Shown here: piece after piece, positions 3,203-42,682 of the stretch | Numbering within the stretch: the first letter of the stretch is position 1 | Layout: each line of letters starts with the position of its first letter | DNA from: Siphonodentalium dalli | Lineage: Eukaryota; Mollusca; Scaphopoda; Gadilida; Siphonodentaliidae | Assembly: GCA_032622095.1 (NCBI GenBank) | Contig: CP136069.1 | Location: forward strand, 6,000,976 to 6,064,975 | DNA: 64,000 nt | Reading direction: 5' to 3' | Made by a program: the position numbers and the translations under genes | The notes under the pieces: model-generated | The model's database searches: none | What the model was told of the DNA's origin: nothing | Seen by the model: only the letters and a program-made list of their open reading frames with translations

Positions 3203-4440
3203 TATGCATCATATGTAGGATGCAGGTAACGGTGAAGGGTGTGGTAGAAGACGGACCGTAGCGATGCAGGATCATGCTCGGAGGTAGTTGATGGTTATAT
3301 GAATATGTAGGATGCAGGTAGCGGTGAAGGATCATGTTGCGAGATAGTTGATGTTATATGAATATGTAGGATTAGGTAGCGGTGAAGGATCATGGTGGGA
3401 GATAGTTGATGTTATATGAATATGTAGGATGCAGGTAGCGGTGCAGGATCATGATGGGAGGTAGTTGATGGTTATATGAATATGTAGGATGCAGGTAGCG
3501 GTGAAGGATCATGTTGGGAGATAGTTGGTGGTTATATGAATATGTAGGGTGCAGGTAGCGGTGAAGGATCATGATGGGATATAGTTGATGGTTATATGAA
3601 TATGTAGGATGTAGGTAGCGGTGAAGGATCATGGTGGGAGATAGTTGATGGTTATATGAATATGTAGGATGCAGGTAGCGGTGAAGGATCATGTTGGGAG
3701 ATAGTTGATGGTTATATGAATATGTAGGATGTAGGTAGCGGTGAAGGATCATGATGGGATATAGTTGATGTTTATATGAATATGTAGGATGCAGGTAGCG
3801 GTGAAGGATCATGATGTGAGAGAGTTGATGGTTATATGAATATGTAGGATGTAGGTAGCGGTGAAGGATCATGATGGGAGGTAGTTGATGGTTATATGAA
3901 TATGTGGGATGCAGGTAGCGGTGAAGGATCATGATGGGAGGTAGTTGATGGTTATATGAATATGTAGGATGCAGGTAGCGGTTAAGGATCGTGATGGGAG
4001 GTAGTTGATGGTTATATGAATATGTAGGATGTAGGTAGCGGTGAAGGATCATGATGGGAGGTAGTTGATGGTTATATGAATATGTAGGATGCAGGTAGCG
4101 GTGAAGGATCATGGTGGGAGGTAGTTGATGGTTATATGAATATGTAGGATGCAGGTAGCGGTGAATGATCATGATGGGAGATAGTTGATGGTTATATGAA
4201 TATGTAGGATGCAGGTAGCGGTGAAGGATCATGATGGGAGGTAGTTGATGGTTATATGAATATGTAGGATGCAGGTAGCGGTGAAGGATCATGGTGGGAG
4301 GTAGTTGATGGTTATATGAATATGTAGGATGCAGGTAGCGGTAAAGGATCATGATGGGAGATAGTTGATGGTTATATGAATATGTAGGATGCAGGTAGCG
4401 GTGAATGGTCACGATGGGAGGCAGTTGATGTTTATATAAT
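3203..4440. repeat. 60-bp satellite array
   Basis: About 20 head-to-tail units of exactly 60 bp, each containing GAATATGTAGGATGCAGGTA. The first unit (3203-3300) is longer and diverged; the next two are slightly shortened, after which the period is exact. Because 60 is divisible by three and one minus-strand frame lacks stops, a 340-residue open frame (3390-4412) results, repeating MILHRYLHPTYSYNHQLPPI. It has no unique N- or C-terminal part, so it is not called as a gene. Confidence 0.97.
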
Positions 4441-4492
4441 ATAGTAACAGACCGACCCGAGGATTAAGGCGACTGTGAAATTTGGTGGTTAA

Positions 4493-12134: not shown

Positions 12135-15100
12135 CAAACAATATTCATCTAATGGACTACGATAACCTGTAACTATATTTGCGAGTAACTGCTTGTCCAG
12201 TGGAAGACGATACTCTGTAACTATATGGATGTATGACTACTCGTACAGCGGACAACGATAGCATTCAACTACTCATCCAATGTACTACGATAACCTGTAA
12301 CTATATGGATGTATGACTACTCGTACACCGTCCAACGATAGCATTCAACTACTCATCCAATGTGCTACGATAACCTGTAACTATATGGATGTATGACTAC
12401 TCGTACAGCGGCCAACGATAGCATTCAACTACTCATCCAATGTACTACGATAACCTGTAACTATATGGATGTATGACAACTCGTACAGCGGCCAACGATA
12501 GCATTCAACTACTCATCCAATGTACTACGATAATCTGTAACTATATGGATGTATGACTACTCGTACAGCGGCCAACGATAGCATTCAACTACTCATCCAA
12601 TGTACTACGATAACCTGTATCTATATGGATGTATGACTACTCGTACAGCGGCCAACGATAGCATTCAACTACTCATCCAATGTACTACGATAATCTGTAA
12701 CTATATGGATGTATGATTACTCGTACAGCGGCCAACGATAGCATTCAACTACTCATCCAATGTACTACGATAATCTGTAACTATATGGATGTATGACTAC
12801 TCGTACAGCGGACAACGATAGCATTCAACTACTCATCCAATGTACTACGATAACCTGTAACTATATGGATGTATGACTACTCGTACACCGTCCAACGATA
12901 GCATTCAACTACTCATCCAATGTGCTACGATAACCTGTAACTATATGGATGTATGACTACTCGTACAGCGGCCAACGATAGCATTCAACTACTCATCCAA
13001 TGTACTACGATAACCTGTAACTATATGGATGTATGACAACTCGTACAGCGGCCAACGATAGCATTCAACTACTCATCCAATGTACTACGATAATCTGTAA
13101 CTATATGGATGTATGACTACTCGTACAGCGGCCAACGATAGCATTCAACTACTCATCCAATGTACTACGATAACCTGTAACTATATGGATGTATGACTAC
13201 TCGTACAGCGGCCAACGATAGCATTCAACTACTCATCCAATGTACTACGATAATCTGTAACTATATGGATGTATGATTACTCGTACAGCGGCCAACGATA
13301 GCATACAACTACTCATCCAATGTACTACGATAATCTGTAACTATATGGATGTATGACAACTCGTACACCGGCCAACGATAGCATTCAACTACTCATCCAA
13401 TGTACTACGATAACCTGTATCTATATGGATGTATGACTACTCGTACACCGGCCAACGATAGCATTCAACTACTCATCCAATGTACTACGATACTCTGTAT
13501 CTATATGGATGTATGACTACTCGTACACCGGCCAACGATAGCATTCAACTACTCATCCAATGTACTACGATAACATGTAACTATATGGATGTATGACTAC
13601 TCGTACAGCGGCCAACGATAGCATTCAACTACTCATCCAATGTGCTACGATAACCTGTATCTATATGGATGTATGACTACTCGTACAGCGGCCAACGATA
13701 GCATTCAACTACTCATCCAATGTACTACGATAACCTGTAACTATATGGATGTATGATTACTCGTACAGCGGCCAACGATAGCATTCAACTACTCATCCAA
13801 TGTGCTACGATAACCTGTATCTATATGGATGTATGACTACTCGTACAGCGGCCAACGATAGCATTCAACTACTCATCCAATGTACTACGATAACCTGTAA
13901 CTATATGGATGTATGACTACTCGTACAGCGGCCAACGATAGCATTCAACTACTCATCCAATGTACTACGATAACCTGTATCTATATGGATGTATGACTAC
14001 TCGTACAGCGGACAACGATAGCATTCAACTACTCATCCAATGTACTACGATAACCTGTATCTATATGGATGTATGACTACTCGTACAGCGGCCAACGATA
14101 GCATTCAACTACTCATCCAATGTACTACGATAACCTGTATCTATATTTGCGAGTAACTGCTTGTCCAGTGGAAGACGATAATCTGTAACTATATGGATGT
14201 ATGACTACTCGTACAGCGGCCAACGATAGCATTCAACTACTCATCCAATGTACTACGATAACCTATAACTATATGGATGTATGACTACTCGTACAGCGGC
14301 CAACGATAGCATTCAACTACTCATCCAATGTACTACGATAACCTGTAACTATATGGATGTATGACAACTCGTACAGCGGCCAACGATAGCACTCAACTAC
14401 TCATCCAATGTACTACGATAATCTGTAACTATTTGATGTATGACTACTCGTACACCGTCCAACGATAGCATTCAACTACTCATCCAATGTACTACGATAA
14501 CCTATAACTATATGGATGTATGACTACTCGTACAGCGGCCAACGATAGCATTCAACTACTCATCCAATGTACTACGATAACCTGTAACTATATGGATGTA
14601 TGACAACTCGTACAGCGGCCAACGATAGCACTCAACTACTCATCCAATGTACTACGATAATCTGTAACTATTTGATGTATGACTACTCGTACACCGTCCA
14701 ACGATAGCATTCAACTACTCATCCAATGTACTACGATAACCTGTATCTATATGGATGTATGACTACTCGTACAGCGGCCAACGATAGCATTCAACTTCTC
14801 ATCCAATGTACTACGATAACCTGTATCTATATGGATGTATGACTACTCGTACAGCGGCCAACGATAGCATTCAACTACTCATCCAATGTACTACGATAAC
14901 CTGTATCTATATGGATGTATGACTACTCGTACAGCGGCCAACGATAGCATTCAACTACTCATCCAATGTACTACGATAACCTGTATCTATATGGATGTAT
15001 GATTACTCGTACAGCGGCCAACGATAGCATTCAACTACTCATCCAATGTACTACGATAACCTGCATCTATATGGATGTATGATTACTCGTACACCGGCCA

Positions 15101-17386
15101 ACGATAGCATTCAACTACTCATCCAATGTACTACGATAACCTGTATCTATATGGATGTATGACTACTCGTACAGCGGCCAACGATAGCATTCAACTACTC
15201 ATCCAATGTACTACGATAACCTGTATCTATATGGATGTATGATTACTCGTACAGCGGCCAACGATAGCATTCAACTACTCATCCAATGTACTACGATAAC
15301 CTGTATCTATATGGATGTATGACTACTCGTACAGCGGCCAACGATAGCATTCAACTACTCATCCAATGTACTACGATAACCTGTATCTATATGGATGTAT
15401 GATTACTCGTACAGCGGCCAACGATAGCATTCAACTACTCATCCAATGTACTACGATAACCTGTATCTATATGGATGTATGACTACTCGTACACCGGCCA
15501 ACGATAGCATTCAACTACTCATCCAATGAACTACGATAACCTGTATCTATATGGATGTATGACTACTCGTACAGCGGCCAACGATAGCATTCAACTACTC
15601 ATCCAATGTACTACGATAACCTGTATCTATATGGATGTATGACTACTCGTACACCGGCCAACGATAGCATTCAACTACTCATCCAATGTACTACGATAAC
15701 CTGTAACTATATGGATGTATGACTACTCGTACAGCGGCCAACGATAGCATTCAACTACTCATCCAATGTACTACGATAACCTGTAACTATATGGATGTAT
15801 GACAACTCGTACAGCGGCCAACGATAGCATTCAACTACTCATCCAATGTACTACGATAACCTGTATCTATATGGATGTATGACTACTCGTACACCGGCCA
15901 ACGATAGCATTCAACTACTCATCCAATGTACTACGATAACCTGTATCTATATGGATGTATGACTACTCGTACAGCGGCCAACGATAGCATTCAACTACTC
16001 ATCCAATGTACTACGATAACCTGTATCTATATGGATGTATGACTACTCGTACACCGGCCAACGATAGCATTCAACTACTCATCCAATGTACTACGATAAC
16101 CTGTATCTATATGGATGTATGACTACTCGTACAGCGGCCAACGATAGCATTCAACTACTCATCCAATGTACTACGATAACCTGTATCTATATGGATGTAT
16201 GACTACTCGTACAGCGGCCAACGATAGCATTCAACTACTCATCCAATGTGCTACGATAACCTGTATCTATATGGATGTATGACTACTCGTACAGCGGCCA
16301 ACGATAGCATTCAACTACTCATCCAATGTACTACGATAACCTGTATCTATATGGATGTATGACTACTCGTACAGCGGACAACGATAGCATTCAACTACTC
16401 ATCCAATGTACTACGATAACCTGTATCTATATGTGCGAGTAACTGCTTGTCCAGTGGAAGACGATAATCTGTAACTATTTGATGTATGACTACTCGTACA
16501 CCGGCCAACGATAGCATTCAACTACTCACCCAATGTACTACGATAACCTGTAACTATATGTGCGAGTAACTGCTTGTCCAGTGGAAGACGATAATCTGTA
16601 ACTATATGGATGTATGACTACTCGTACACCGGCCAACGATAGCATTCAACTACTCATCCAATGTACTACGATAACCTGTATCTATATGTGCGAGTAACTG
16701 CTTGTCCAGTGGAAGACGATAATCTGTAACTATTTGATGTATGACTACTCGTACACCGGCCAACGATAGCATTCAACTACTCACCCAATGTACTACGATA
16801 ACCTGTAACTATATGTGCGAGTAACTGCTTGTCCAGTGGAAGACGATAATCTGTAACTATTTGATGTATGACTACTCGTACACCGGCCAACGATAGCATT
16901 CAACTACTCATCCAATGTACTACGATAACCTGTAACTATATGTGCGAGTAACTGCTTGTCCAGTGGAAGACGATAATCTGTAACTATTTGATGTATGACT
17001 ACTCGTACACCGGCCAACGATAGCACTCAACTACTCATCCAATGTACTACGATAACCTGTAACTATATGGATGTATGACAACTCGTACAGCGGCCAACGA
17101 TAGCATTCAACTACTCATCCAATGTACTACGATAACCTGTATCTATATGGATGTATGACAACTCGTACACCGGCCAACGATAGCATTCAACTACTCATCC
17201 AATGTACTACGATAACCTGTATCTATATGGATGTATGACTACTCGTACAGCGGCCAACGATAGCATTCAACTACTCATCCAATGTACTACGATAACCTGT
17301 ATCTATATGGATGTATGACAACTCGTACAGCGGCAAACGATAGCATTCAACTACTCATCCAATGTACTACGATAATCTGTAACTAT
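12135..17386. repeat. 80-bp satellite array
   Basis: About 65 units of 80 bp, typically TCGTACAGCGGCCAACGATA followed by GCATTCAACTACTCATCCAA and two further 20-base blocks. The monomer looks dimeric: ACGATA-containing segments of about 46 and 34 bp alternate. A variant with GCGAGTAACTGCTTGTCCAG sits at 12181, 14149 and five times at 16435-16944, where a 127-bp higher-order unit (80 plus 47) repeats. At the left end a block of seven monomers (12241-12800) recurs at 12801-13360. No frame stays open throughout. Confidence 0.97.
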
Positions 17387-17390
17387 ATTT

Positions 17391-17839
17391 GTGACCCGCC
17401 ATATCAAATCCAGTCGTAAGTCGGGATTTTTTTTACCCTGTGCCAATGCATTCTCTTATATATGCGAGTCGACAATAGGTCGCCTCGCATATATAAGAGA
17501 ATGCATTGGCCTAACAATTTTAATAATTTTTTCTTGTATTCTTTAACAATTTTATAATTTCACCCATACAGAGCCCCAGACAAACATGAGCAGACGACAC
17601 CCTTCTATATGCTTCTATATATATGTGTGGGGCTCCCTGCAGGGTAATGGATGTTTTTTATTTTATGTCCTAAAAATTGTAAGAAACATTTATTTAAAAA
17701 ACATGATAAAAAATTGTTAGGCCAATGCATTCTCTTATATATGCGAGGCGACCTATGGTCGACTCGCATATATAAGAGAATGCATTGGCACAGGGTAAAA
17801 AAATCCTGACTTTCGACTGGATTTGATATGGCGGGTCAC
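17391..17839 (+). mobile_element. GTGACCC MITE, copy 2 (full length)
   Basis: A 449-bp element with termini GTGACCCGCCATATCAAATC, palindromic modules at 17443-17509 and 17722-17788, and the standard interior. It sits at the right edge of the 80-bp satellite. ATTT occurs on both sides (17387-17390 and 17840-17843), consistent with a 4-bp target duplication. Satellite-like GTGTAACTAC continues only briefly after it. Confidence 0.9.
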
Positions 17840-34339: not shown

Positions 34340-35734
34340 GAAATGCCCACACGAGGCGGTATGCCACGAGGGAGTATAAGCTGCATATGCTTGGCTTTGA
34401 TGGAAAATCATGGCTACTGCTTCATCAGATGCTTAAAGGTACCTCTTGTTTCGTGAAATACGGAGATTGCCAGTCCAGGCAATTTCAAATAGAGCAAGGA
34501 ACAAAACAAGGGTGGCGTTATTTCACCTCTTTTTTACATGCTCTTTGTTGACCAACTTTTGGTAGAACTGGCAAACTCGGGAGCAGGACTGAATATGTAT
34601 TCTGTAAACTGTTCATGTCCAACACAAGCTGATGATATGACACTCCTCTCTGTTTCGGAAAAAGGTCTTCAGCAGCTACTGACTATATGCACTATAATTA
34701 CAGTCGAAAATGGAGGTATCGATATAATGAACAAAAGTCAGTTTTTATTGTCTTTAATGAAAGTAAAATGCGCACAATAAGACGAGTACTAACCGGGCAT
34801 GGACTCTATGTGGGAAACAAAGTTGAAAGTCTTACACACTTAGGTGTCCCTATACATAAGCATAATCAAAACGGCGAAATAAAACATTGACGAAATAAAA
34901 CAGAAACTTAGGTCAAGCTATTTTGCTATGTCCAACATCGGTATGTATGCTGGAGGTATAACACCAGTCAGCAGTAGGACAATTTATACATCTATAATAT
35001 TGCCAAGAGGTCTCTTCTGTTGTGAACTGATGTGTGGCTTGACCGATTCCGATGTATTATCCCTGGAAAGAACTCACCGATTTTGCCTTAAAAAAATCCA
35101 AGGTTTACATTCCAAAACACGGACCAACATTGTAGAAGGGTTGCTGGGAATAGGTAATATTCACAGTTTTATTGAAAAAAAGAAGCTTCTCTTCTTCGGA
35201 AGTCTATGCGCCCTCACAACTGAGAAGGCAGCCAAATCAGTTTTCTTATTAAGGCTGCACTCGTTCTTCATAGATGGGGTTTCGGGAAAATCCTTCATTT
35301 CCGATATTGCAAATATTCTAGGTAACCACCAGTTGTTGTCATATTTTACAAATTATGTTTCTGAAAGTGAATTCCCATCAAAGTCGTCATGGAAAAGTAT
35401 AGTGCGCAAGGCAATATCTGAATATTCAGAACACGAATGGGAAAGCGCGGTGATCAGCGACAAATCACTCAGTCGCTTTCATGTTATACACCCACAGTTA
35501 TCAGTCTCCCATTTGTGGCGTTGCTTTCGAAAGTTCCCTAGACACAAAATAGCATATTTGACTGTGGCCGGCATCATAGCTTGTACTGAGTCCGAATTTT
35601 TAACTTGCAACAAATGTGGTGTTGCTTATGATGATATCCCTCTACACGTCATCATAAACTGCCCCGCCATTGCGGAATATCGCAACGACATATGGTACAA
35701 GAAAACTAAGATGCATGCATCAGGTCGGCCGTGA
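34340..35734 (+). pseudogene. Non-LTR retrotransposon reverse transcriptase, frameshifted 3' fragment
   Basis: Four successive open stretches in alternating plus frames (to 34551; 34538-34780; 34687-34890; 34928-35734) read as one decayed protein. In order: an RT palm segment with QGTKQG; a GGVISPLF-type stretch only after a one-base shift near 34510; the catalytic QADDMTLLS motif (codons at 34628-34636 are ADD); the HLGVPI segment typical of LINE RTs; and a C-terminal region of 268 codons ending in CNKCGVAYDDIPLH...C (residues about 227-245), the zinc-knuckle-like motif at the end of many LINE ORF2 proteins. The endonuclease and N-terminal RT are absent, so this is a 5'-truncated, inactive copy. 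The clade is uncertain (Jockey/CR1-like is plausible). Confidence 0.85.
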
Positions 35735-40044: not shown

Positions 40045-40573
40045 ACTTAACTACAATATATATGGTCATTACAGGTATACATACATGTATGTGTGTGACA
40101 TACAATAGAAATGGGGTGGTCGATATTATATAGTTAACTACACTGTTTCAGTTCGACAGGCTGGTGGTAGTAAGCCTCGGGAGGACCTAAATATCTCAAG
40201 GACCTTCTTAATAAATACTTACAAGTTTTTAACTGTCTTATGATTTCGAGAGTTAAATAGAGCGGCTAATTTATAAGTGTTTGGTCTCTGATAGAAGTAT
40301 ATAGGGTTTCAGATATTTTATTCTTAGTTCGCTAAGTTCCCTACATTTCAGTACCATGTGGTATATTCATCGCCTATTTCGAGATTACAGATAGTGTAGA
40401 TTCTGTCGGAATAATCCATATTTGTCCAAGCACCGAGCTCTTTAGGGAGTTTGTGGTTTCTTGTGCGGAAAGATAAAATATTATTTCACGTTTACCGTCA
40501 GTGCATGGGGTAGCAAATTATCACTTTATAATTATTTTTATCGTATAAAACTTCCCAAACAACAGCGGCTCGC
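40042..40573. other. Unassigned DNA upstream of the acceptor array
   Basis: No exon or repeat recognised. The frame that opens at 40577 is closed here by TGA at 40574-40576. Confidence 0.4.
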
Positions 40574-40620
40574 TGATTCAACAAGTCGCAACAACGATAT
40601 GTACAAAATTATTGGACCTT

Positions 40621-42087
40621 AACCGGGTGTGTTTTCTGTTTTACAGGTAGAAAACATGAATATTATGTTTATGTTATATGTTTAACCGGGTGTGTTTTCT
40701 GTTTTACAGGTAGAAAACATGAATATTATGTTTATGTTATATGTTTAACCGGGTGTGTTTTCTGTTTTACAGGTAGAAAACATGAATATTATGTTTATGT
40801 TATATGTTTAACCGGGTGTGTTTTCTGTTTTACAGGTAGAAAACATGAATATTATGTTTATGTTATATGTTTAACCGGGTGTGTTTTCTGTTTTACAGGT
40901 AGAAAACATGAATATTCACGGACCTTAACCGGGTGTGTTTTCTGTTTTACAGGTAGAAAACATGAATATTATGTTTATGTTATATGTTTAACCGGGTGTG
41001 TTTTCTGTTTTACAGGTAGAAAACATGAATATTCACGGACCTTAACCGGGTGTGTTTTCTGTTTTACAGGTAGAAAACATGAATATTATGTTTATGTTAT
41101 ATGTTTAACCGGGTGTGTTTTCTGTTTTACAGGTAGAAAACATGAATATTATGTTTATGTTATATGTTTAACCGGGTGTGTTTTCTGTTTTACAGGTAGA
41201 AAACATGAATATTCACGGACCTTAACCGGGTGTGTTTTCTGTTTTACAGGTAGAAAACATGAATATTATGTTTATGTTATATGTTTAACCGGGTGTGTTT
41301 TCTGTTTTACAGGTAGAAAACATGAATATTATGTTTATGTTATATGTTTAACCGGGTGTGTTTTCTGTTTTACAGGTAGAAAACATGAATATTATGTTTA
41401 TGTTATATGTTTAACCGGGTGTGTTTTCTGTTTTACAGGTAGAAAACATGAATATTCACGGACCTTAACCGGGTGTGTTTTCTGTTTTACAGGTAGAAAA
41501 CATGAATATTATGTTTATGTTATATGTTTAACCGGGTGTGTTTTCTGTTTTACAGGTAGAAAACATGAATATTATGTTTATGTTATATGTTTAACCGGGT
41601 GTGTTTTCTGTTTTACAGGTAGAAAACATGAATATTATGTTTATGTTATATGTTTAACCGGGTGTGTTTTCTGTTTTACAGGTAGAAAACATGAATATTA
41701 TGTTTATGTTATATGTTTAACCGGGTGTGTTTTCTGTTTTACAGGTAGAAAACATGAATATTATGTTTATGTTATATGTTTAACCGGGTGTGTTTTCTGT
41801 TTTACAGGTAGAAAACATGAATATTATGTTTATGTTATATGTTTAACCGGGTGTGTTTTCTGTTTTACAGGTAGAAAACATGAATATTATGTTTATGTTA
41901 TATGTTTAACCGGGTGTGTTTTCTGTTTTACAGGTAGAAAACATGAATATTATGTTTATGTTATATGTTTAACCGGGTGTGTTTTCTGTTTTACAGGTAG
42001 AAAACATGAATATTATGTTTATGTTATATGTTTAACCGGGTGTGTTTTCTGTTTTACAGGTAGAAAACATGAATATTCACGAACTGT
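40621..42087 (+). repeat. 63/54-bp tandem array with repeated splice-acceptor signals
   Basis: Twenty-four near-identical units: most are 63 bp, and units 5, 7, 10 and 14 are 54 bp. Each holds TTAACC (branch-point-like), then GTGTTTTCTGTTTTACAG, a strong 3' splice site, followed by GTAGAAAACATGAATATT. Short units continue TCACGGACCTT and long ones ATGTTTATGTTATATGT. Near-identity between units indicates recent expansion or ongoing homogenisation. One plus frame is open across all units because both unit lengths are multiples of three. Confidence 0.97.
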
Positions 42088-42101
42088 TAGGGCGGATATA
42101 G
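42060..42101 (+). other. Candidate 42-nt microexon
   Basis: Bounded by the acceptor of the last array unit (AG at 42058-42059) and a strong donor, GTGAGT (42102-42107). In the frame that is open through the array it reads RKHEYSRTVRADI plus one base. 42 nt is a multiple of three, so inclusion would keep frame. No flanking exons are identified, so this is a hypothesis from splice signals alone. Confidence 0.35.
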
Positions 42102-42193
42102 GTGAGTTACTATTTTTGTCTTCTTTTCATTCCTTATACAACCGTGTATATATATACACCGGCCCAGTATACGTTCCATATGCAATAATGTAA

Positions 42194-42682
42194 TGAGTTA
42201 TACCCATGTAAAGCAGAATAATGTATAATTGAAAATCATTTAGCCAACAAAAAAACAACAACAACAACAGCAACAACAACAACAAACAAATCGCGAAACC
42301 TGCATGGTGCCGCCAATTATGTTGTACTCATTACTGTCTATGTTATTATCTAGAAGATATGTTATAATTTATGTTATATGTGATATGATATATGTTATAT
42401 GCCATGCAGTGGTATCGCCAACAGGGGCATATCGAAGAAATTTTAACACGAAATAAAACAAAAAGTGATGTTTTATTGTCGAAACGAAATTGTTCCTTCT
42501 GAACGGCTCTATGTGTGTTTCGAGCGCGATCCCATTCGTCAACCGATCACGTGATGGAAGCTGCGTAACTAAATGTTCATTAAATAACAACTAAACGATA
42601 CATGGTGTGCACACCCACACACACACGCACGCACACACATATGGAAGCTCTACAGCTAGTCGTAAGTTTAGAACGAAATTTA
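42194..42682. repeat. Spacer with AAC and CA microsatellites
   Basis: (AAC)n at about 42243-42290 and (CA)n at about 42606-42640. Nothing else recognised. Confidence 0.75.

Follow-up and report, generated by a model that had tools for sequence, protein, structure and literature searches.

What becomes of a splice site when a minisatellite grows over it, and can such an array be told from one that resembles a splice site by accident? The question is raised by a locus in Siphonodentalium dalli that lies within a stretch of DNA of 64,000 nucleotides (here called the window; C9:6000976-6064975 in a genome of 2.23 Gb and 9 contigs), to which all positions refer. On its plus strand, 24 copies of a 46-nt core follow one another, the first starting at 40619 and the last at 42032 (Table 1). 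The sequence bears out what an earlier note on this DNA had described: a branch-point-like TTAACC, a polypyrimidine tract and TTTTACAG are found in 24 of 24 units, always in the form TTAACC...TTTTACAG/GTAGAA (the slash marks the presumed splice boundary), and the units are indeed 63 or 54 nt long. The longer unit is made by a linker of 17 nt, ATGTTTATGTTATATGT, which accounts for 19 of the 23 linkers between cores, and the shorter one by a linker of 8 nt, CACGGACC, which accounts for the remaining four. If the 63-nt unit is written as A and the 54-nt unit as B, the order is AAAABABAABAAABAAAAAAAAA, and the last (24th) unit continues into CACGAACTG.

Table 1. Coordinates, within the window, of the array and of the features in and around it.
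Feature	Position	Strand	Basis
Copy of a high-copy dispersed repeat, separate from the array	40052..40485	+	Genome search
Open frame of 538 codons whose only ATG is the last codon; a by-product of the repeat period	40577..42190	+	Translation and shuffles
GACC, presumed left end of the segment that was duplicated; part of the left flank TTGGACC	40615..40618	+	Inferred from the junction
Tandem array of 24 identical 46-nt cores with 19 linkers of 17 nt and 4 of 8 nt	40619..42077	+	Unit comparison
Last copy of branch-point-like TTAAC, polypyrimidine tract and TTTTACAG; presumed authentic 3' splice site	42032..42059	+	Unit match and splice scores
Candidate exon of 42 nt; its first 18 nt recur in every unit, and the CACG that follows recurs in the 54-nt units; the last 20 nt lie outside the repeat	42060..42101	+	
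Terminal donor TAG/GTGAGT, with the highest score of the donors listed up to 42.8 kb	42102..42107	+	
TTTATGTTATATGT, 14 nt shared with the 17-nt spacer of the 63-nt unit; may have been the spacer's template	42368..42381	+	

The 24 cores are identical to the letter, and there is not one substitution in the 24 x 46 core positions or in any of the 23 linkers, so that the array is either young or strongly homogenised. This degree of identity is not peculiar to it, as matches of 100% in TRF are also seen in another array of the region, and an assembly effect may be the source of the identity between copies. Every unit also contains a perfect 8-nt inverted repeat, TGTTTTCT and AGAAAACA (e.g. 40630-40656), with the ACAG/GT junction in its loop, an arrangement that arises in 1.4% of 5,000 shuffled cores. 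A hairpin in RNA or DNA was considered and rejected, the folding energies being ordinary (RNA z -0.02 to -0.63 in four folds; DNA z -1.30 and -1.66).

The splice signals of the array go beyond chance, unlike its open reading frame, to which we return below. With mammalian-like consensus matrices that were not trained on Siphonodentalium dalli, the unit acceptor scores 12.55 bits and the terminal donor 10.91 bits. On both strands of the 32.7 kb of the window that were left unmasked, none of 3,163 AGs and none of 3,699 GTs reach these respective scores. In the 264 kb around the locus one of 11,316 unmasked AGs scores above the unit acceptor, and that one is a plain T-run, while seven other GTs of 13,625 outscore the terminal donor. 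Shuffling the unit gives the acceptor score once in 5,000 trials, a figure that, like the other chance tests, has to be read with the fact that the array was picked for having splice signals. The donor GTGAGT occurs five times on the plus strand of the window, and the one at 42102 is alone in the interval from 40 to 42.5 kb, which agrees with the earlier observation that it appears only after the last unit and there closes a candidate exon of 42 nt. Within the window's first 42.8 kb, the top acceptor and the top donor sit 42 nt apart and in the correct order. Among all pairs in the 264 kb that are 20-350 nt apart with an open frame between them, this pair ranks first (23.46, against 22.41 for the runner-up), in a ranking made after the mask had been lifted by hand from the focal stretch but from none of the other arrays. 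The runner-up, a candidate only, is a 94-nt exon-like pair on the same strand at window position 133842-133935, and since it comes without exon support, high-scoring false pairs may exist.

The surroundings of the array are rich in tandem repeats. Of the 264 kb, 54% is masked as such, and 63 non-redundant arrays (period 15-200, at least three copies) can be counted there, among them one of about 22 kb with a 46-bp period and one of about 68 kb with a 48-bp period. The latter is a satellite that begins about 700 nt past the candidate donor and extends from 42797 to 111099 with 97% matches between copies. Only the focal unit among the 63 arrays reaches 12.5 bits, the next acceptor score being 8.64, and when all 63 were shuffled as a set, one set in 200 held a unit at or above 12.5. 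A general enrichment of acceptors in the nearby minisatellites was also considered and rejected, as scores of at least 8 bits are found in 2 of 63 arrays against a mean of 2.9 in shuffles; with no excess at 8 bits or more, the local arrays are not generally splice-like.

The main rival to a captured splice site is nevertheless that this is an ordinary minisatellite in non-genic DNA, in which the resemblance to a 3' splice site arose by chance and GTGAGT follows by coincidence. It owes its standing to the lack of a recognisable host gene in six-frame Pfam scans of nearly all of positions 1-42.8 kb, which extended up to the satellite and, on the minus strand, covered what lies outside 13002-17399 in the tandem arrays there. 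The crowding of minisatellites in the region also speaks for it, as does the nearly equal and unsupported pair elsewhere in the 264 kb. Against it stand the rarity of the acceptor score, both in shuffles of the unit and in shuffled sets of the 63 arrays, and the placing of the best acceptor and the best donor of the first 42.8 kb at so short a distance in the right order. We consider a chance resemblance unlikely, but it is a rival to be taken seriously.

The single Pfam match in these scans is below threshold, namely RVT_1 with E 0.0017 and 18.5 bits where 29.6 are required, and it may mark what is left of the reverse transcriptase of a retrotransposon. A frame of 283 codons after this match (both within 34499-35734, plus strand) has a Cys/His-rich stretch near its end, and against PDB the region gave weak matches alone, with an R2 retrotransposon protein (E 0.37) among unrelated ones. 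No RNA family reached its gathering score in the window, and the viral contigs that were scanned with a piece of the core and with a piece of the 48-bp satellite gave no match.

In the genome searches the array is confined to one place. Searched together with its flanks, it has one match in the genome, the array itself, in a search of one assembly in which very common words are passed over. When up to two mismatches are allowed over the whole genome, a 23-nt piece of the core has 24 exact matches, all within the array, and three inexact ones elsewhere, and its reversed control has one match. A transposon origin of the unit found no support, as the 23-nt piece is exact only in the array and the dispersed repeat upstream stops short of it. 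Of the 1001 candidate places of this repeat in the genome 40 were scored, and the copy here matches the other 39 of them at 87-93% identity; as it ends at 40485, 133 nt remain between it and the array.

The joints between the units preserve what looks like the first step in the history of the array. In the 54-nt unit the junction ATATTCACG/GACCTTAACC corresponds to the right flank (ATATTCACGAAC) fused to the left flank (TTGGACCTTAACC) with an overlap of 1 nt, and the linker CACGGACC is the CACG of CACGAAC in the right flank followed by the GACC of TTGGACC in the left flank. We infer that the linker is the scar to be expected from a simple tandem duplication across an intron-exon junction. Both the AG/GT in each copy and a duplication junction that can still be read are what intron gain by tandem duplication calls for. 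The spacer of the 63-nt unit probably has a different source, as it shares TTTATGTTATATGT with a site about 290 nt downstream; a match as long as these 14 nt came up in none of 1,000 trials in which the 500-nt right flank was shuffled and in 5 of 1,000 in which the spacer was. Because the short linker consists of the joined flanks and the long one shares TTTATGTTATATGT with the downstream DNA, the 54-nt form probably arose first, and the 63-nt form probably came from a small templated insertion that then spread.

With the anatomy of the array, the identity of its units, the junction sequences, the splice-site scores and the single genomic locus established, we find it fairly probable that the array is a recent minisatellite of the type called "mirage", which has grown over a 3' splice site and whose upstream copies are passive. 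A mutational by-product is more likely here than a designed switch. The starting point would be a segment of 54 nt that comprised the last 32 nt of an intron (TTAAC, the polypyrimidine tract and TTTTACAG) and the first 22 nt of the 42-nt exon. A tandem duplication of this segment would have created the new junction, from CACG of the right flank to GACC of the left flank; in a later event a 17-nt linker, for which DNA some 290 nt downstream was probably the template, would have taken the place of the 8-nt one, and unequal exchange or slippage would then have multiplied the resulting 63-nt unit until there were 24 copies. The last copy would be the authentic and working splice site of an expressed gene, and copies 1-23 would be passive decoys inside the upstream intron. 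Normal splicing would join an upstream exon to 42060-42101, and occasional use of an upstream acceptor could give exons of 105 or 168 nt as noise.

The units are tandem and minisatellite-like, and they carry splice-site sequence with an intron part as well as an exon part; at the sequence level the array agrees with the definition of a mirage, and also with that of a tandem duplication across such a boundary as in potato RdRp (PMC4974935), and we place it among them with moderate confidence. In lancelets, minisatellite-like tandem duplication over an intron-exon boundary occurs in Adh3, BflGb6, BflGb9, troponin C and PGBD5 (PMC3087553, PMC3902484), and the mirages in Adh and troponin C are reported to give no aberrant mRNAs (PMC3902484). 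These cases resemble the array in that the duplication spans the boundary and many of the repeats have AG/GT, and their units are of the same order of length (10-72 bp in Adh3; 60 and 108 bp in PGBD5). The BflGb6 mirage is also similar in its homogenised inner units, from which the edges of the cluster are exempt, but its haplotypes have 6 and 3 units of 150-160 bp with 81-100% identity, in contrast to the 24 letter-identical cores described here. The array further differs from the lancelet mirages in mixing two unit types. The more modest of the earlier note's readings, in which an intron-exon junction was captured by a minisatellite, is the best supported one, with the scar, the splice signals, the one locus and the precedents in its favour.

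Other precedents come from a wider range of organisms. Potato RdRp, ATP2A1 and the 24-bp repeats of fission yeast are cases of tandem duplication in which the duplicated segment carries a branch site, pyrimidine tract and 3' splice site across an intron-exon boundary, just as would be the case here (PMC4974935). The array differs from these cases in that new introns are reported for them, from ESTs in fission yeast and by reproducing the ATP2A1 type in ATP2A2. In duplicated human genes, internal tandem repeats at exon-intron boundaries may switch on cryptic splice sites and so give rise to new introns (PMC2812944); the siting of a minisatellite at such a boundary would be a likeness to our array, but the human gene-modifying repeats average four units of 30 bp and lie in known transcripts (PMC2812944).

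The earlier note had pointed to a plus-strand frame open for 538 codons with no ATG until the end, and this is correct, as the sole methionine is the last residue. Of 5,000 dinucleotide-shuffled units, however, 77.8% leave at least one of the six frames open (17% for one given frame), and the consensuses of the three other arrays that were tested (60, 48 and 21 bp) each have an open frame as well. The open frame is unremarkable, being often expected by chance once the period is a multiple of three. The frame found nothing in PDB at E<=1, and for these two reasons, the 78% of shuffled units that keep a frame open and the lack of a PDB match at that threshold, its coding reading was rejected and dropped as evidence. 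A 60-bp array at 3390-4463 has an open frame of 357 codons on the minus strand, which is likewise a consequence of its period.

A built-in length ladder, as the earlier note proposed, would, if functional, mean that several of the 24 acceptors are used in a regulated manner and yield in-frame isoforms that differ by 18 or 21 residues. The arithmetic of this stands: the distances from acceptor to donor (42, 105, 168 ... 1455) are multiples of three in 24 of 24 cases, and one frame is open through the whole array. Given the shuffles, though, an open frame and a period divisible by three are weak evidence, and the claim that any acceptor would give an in-frame exon is true in only one of the two phases that are plausible. 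The candidate exon can be read without a stop in a single frame of the three, as RKHEYSRTVRADI; a second frame reads VENMNIHELLGRI and then TAG on the final three exon bases, and in this frame the upstream acceptors introduce TAA (in the 105- and 168-nt forms that were examined). "In frame" is therefore limited to the RKHEYSRTVRADI phase, because the phase of VENMNIHELLGRI and its stop gains a further stop from the upstream copies. Each unit also contains, just 5' of the pyrimidine tract (e.g. at 40627), a moderate donor-like CGG/GTGTGT of 7.31 bits, which outscores the AG/GT donor of the unit (4.6) and would break the ladder up into stretches of 43 or 34 nt that are out of frame; because of it, 42102 is the sole strong donor yet not the sole possible one. 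Furthermore, the peptide added by each unit would be a translation of branch-point and pyrimidine-tract sequence, the perfect identity of the units suggests a recent or strongly homogenised array, and the lancelet mirages are reported not to disturb splicing (PMC3087553, PMC3902484). A regulated ladder appears to us highly improbable.

As each unit, from one AG/GT to the next, starts with GT and ends with AG, units could be removed in any number without leaving a trace. This opens for tandem recursive splicing, where ACAG/GTAGAA would act as a fused acceptor and donor, the units of 63 or 54 nt as removable GT...AG introns, and the 42-nt exon with its strong donor as the exon of a ratchet point. 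The junction AG/GT is there in 24 of 24 units, and so are a short exon, of 42 nt, and a donor downstream of it, GTGAGT. Many animals have a lower limit of intron size near 63 nt, which speaks against the idea, as the units would be close to the minimum. The regenerated donor CAG/GTAGAA is moreover weak at 4.6 bits, a score that 7-8% of the unmasked GTs of the window equal or beat, whereas the regenerated donors of fly ratchet points are described as mostly strong (PMC8605326). Recursive-splicing exons are there described as about 50 nt long and situated within long introns (PMC8605326), and the array is similar in that fused AG/GT sites lead up to a short candidate exon that has a strong donor of its own, the whole lying in a long stretch rich in repeats with the 68-kb satellite downstream. 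It differs from ratchet points in its 24 tandem copies, 54-63 nt apart, and in the weak regenerated donor. A search of the open-licence PMC literature for recursive splicing together with minisatellites found one paper with both terms, which by its title and the start of its abstract deals with single-cell RNA-seq. Splicing at a ratchet point of this kind is in our opinion very unlikely, and we are just as doubtful, to say the least, of a set of 24 self-regenerating recursive sites from which introns of 54 or 63 nt are removed in any number, each step rebuilding AG/GT. Were it true, the length of the array in RNA would be a read-out of splicing kinetics, and it would be invisible to ordinary read mapping, since each product would look like a shorter allele.

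The size of the lancelet genome is unlike the 2.23 Gb of this 9-contig genome, and if transcripts confirm the reading as a minisatellite grown over a 3' splice site, the mirage phenomenon of lancelets would be extended to a different genome that is rich in minisatellites. It would also be a young-looking case, with the scar of the duplication still readable, and its 24 identical acceptors against one strong donor would, if confirmed, make a natural test of acceptor choice. The array would then bear on how a tandem duplication over a splice site is tolerated by the gene it strikes, or seeds new introns.
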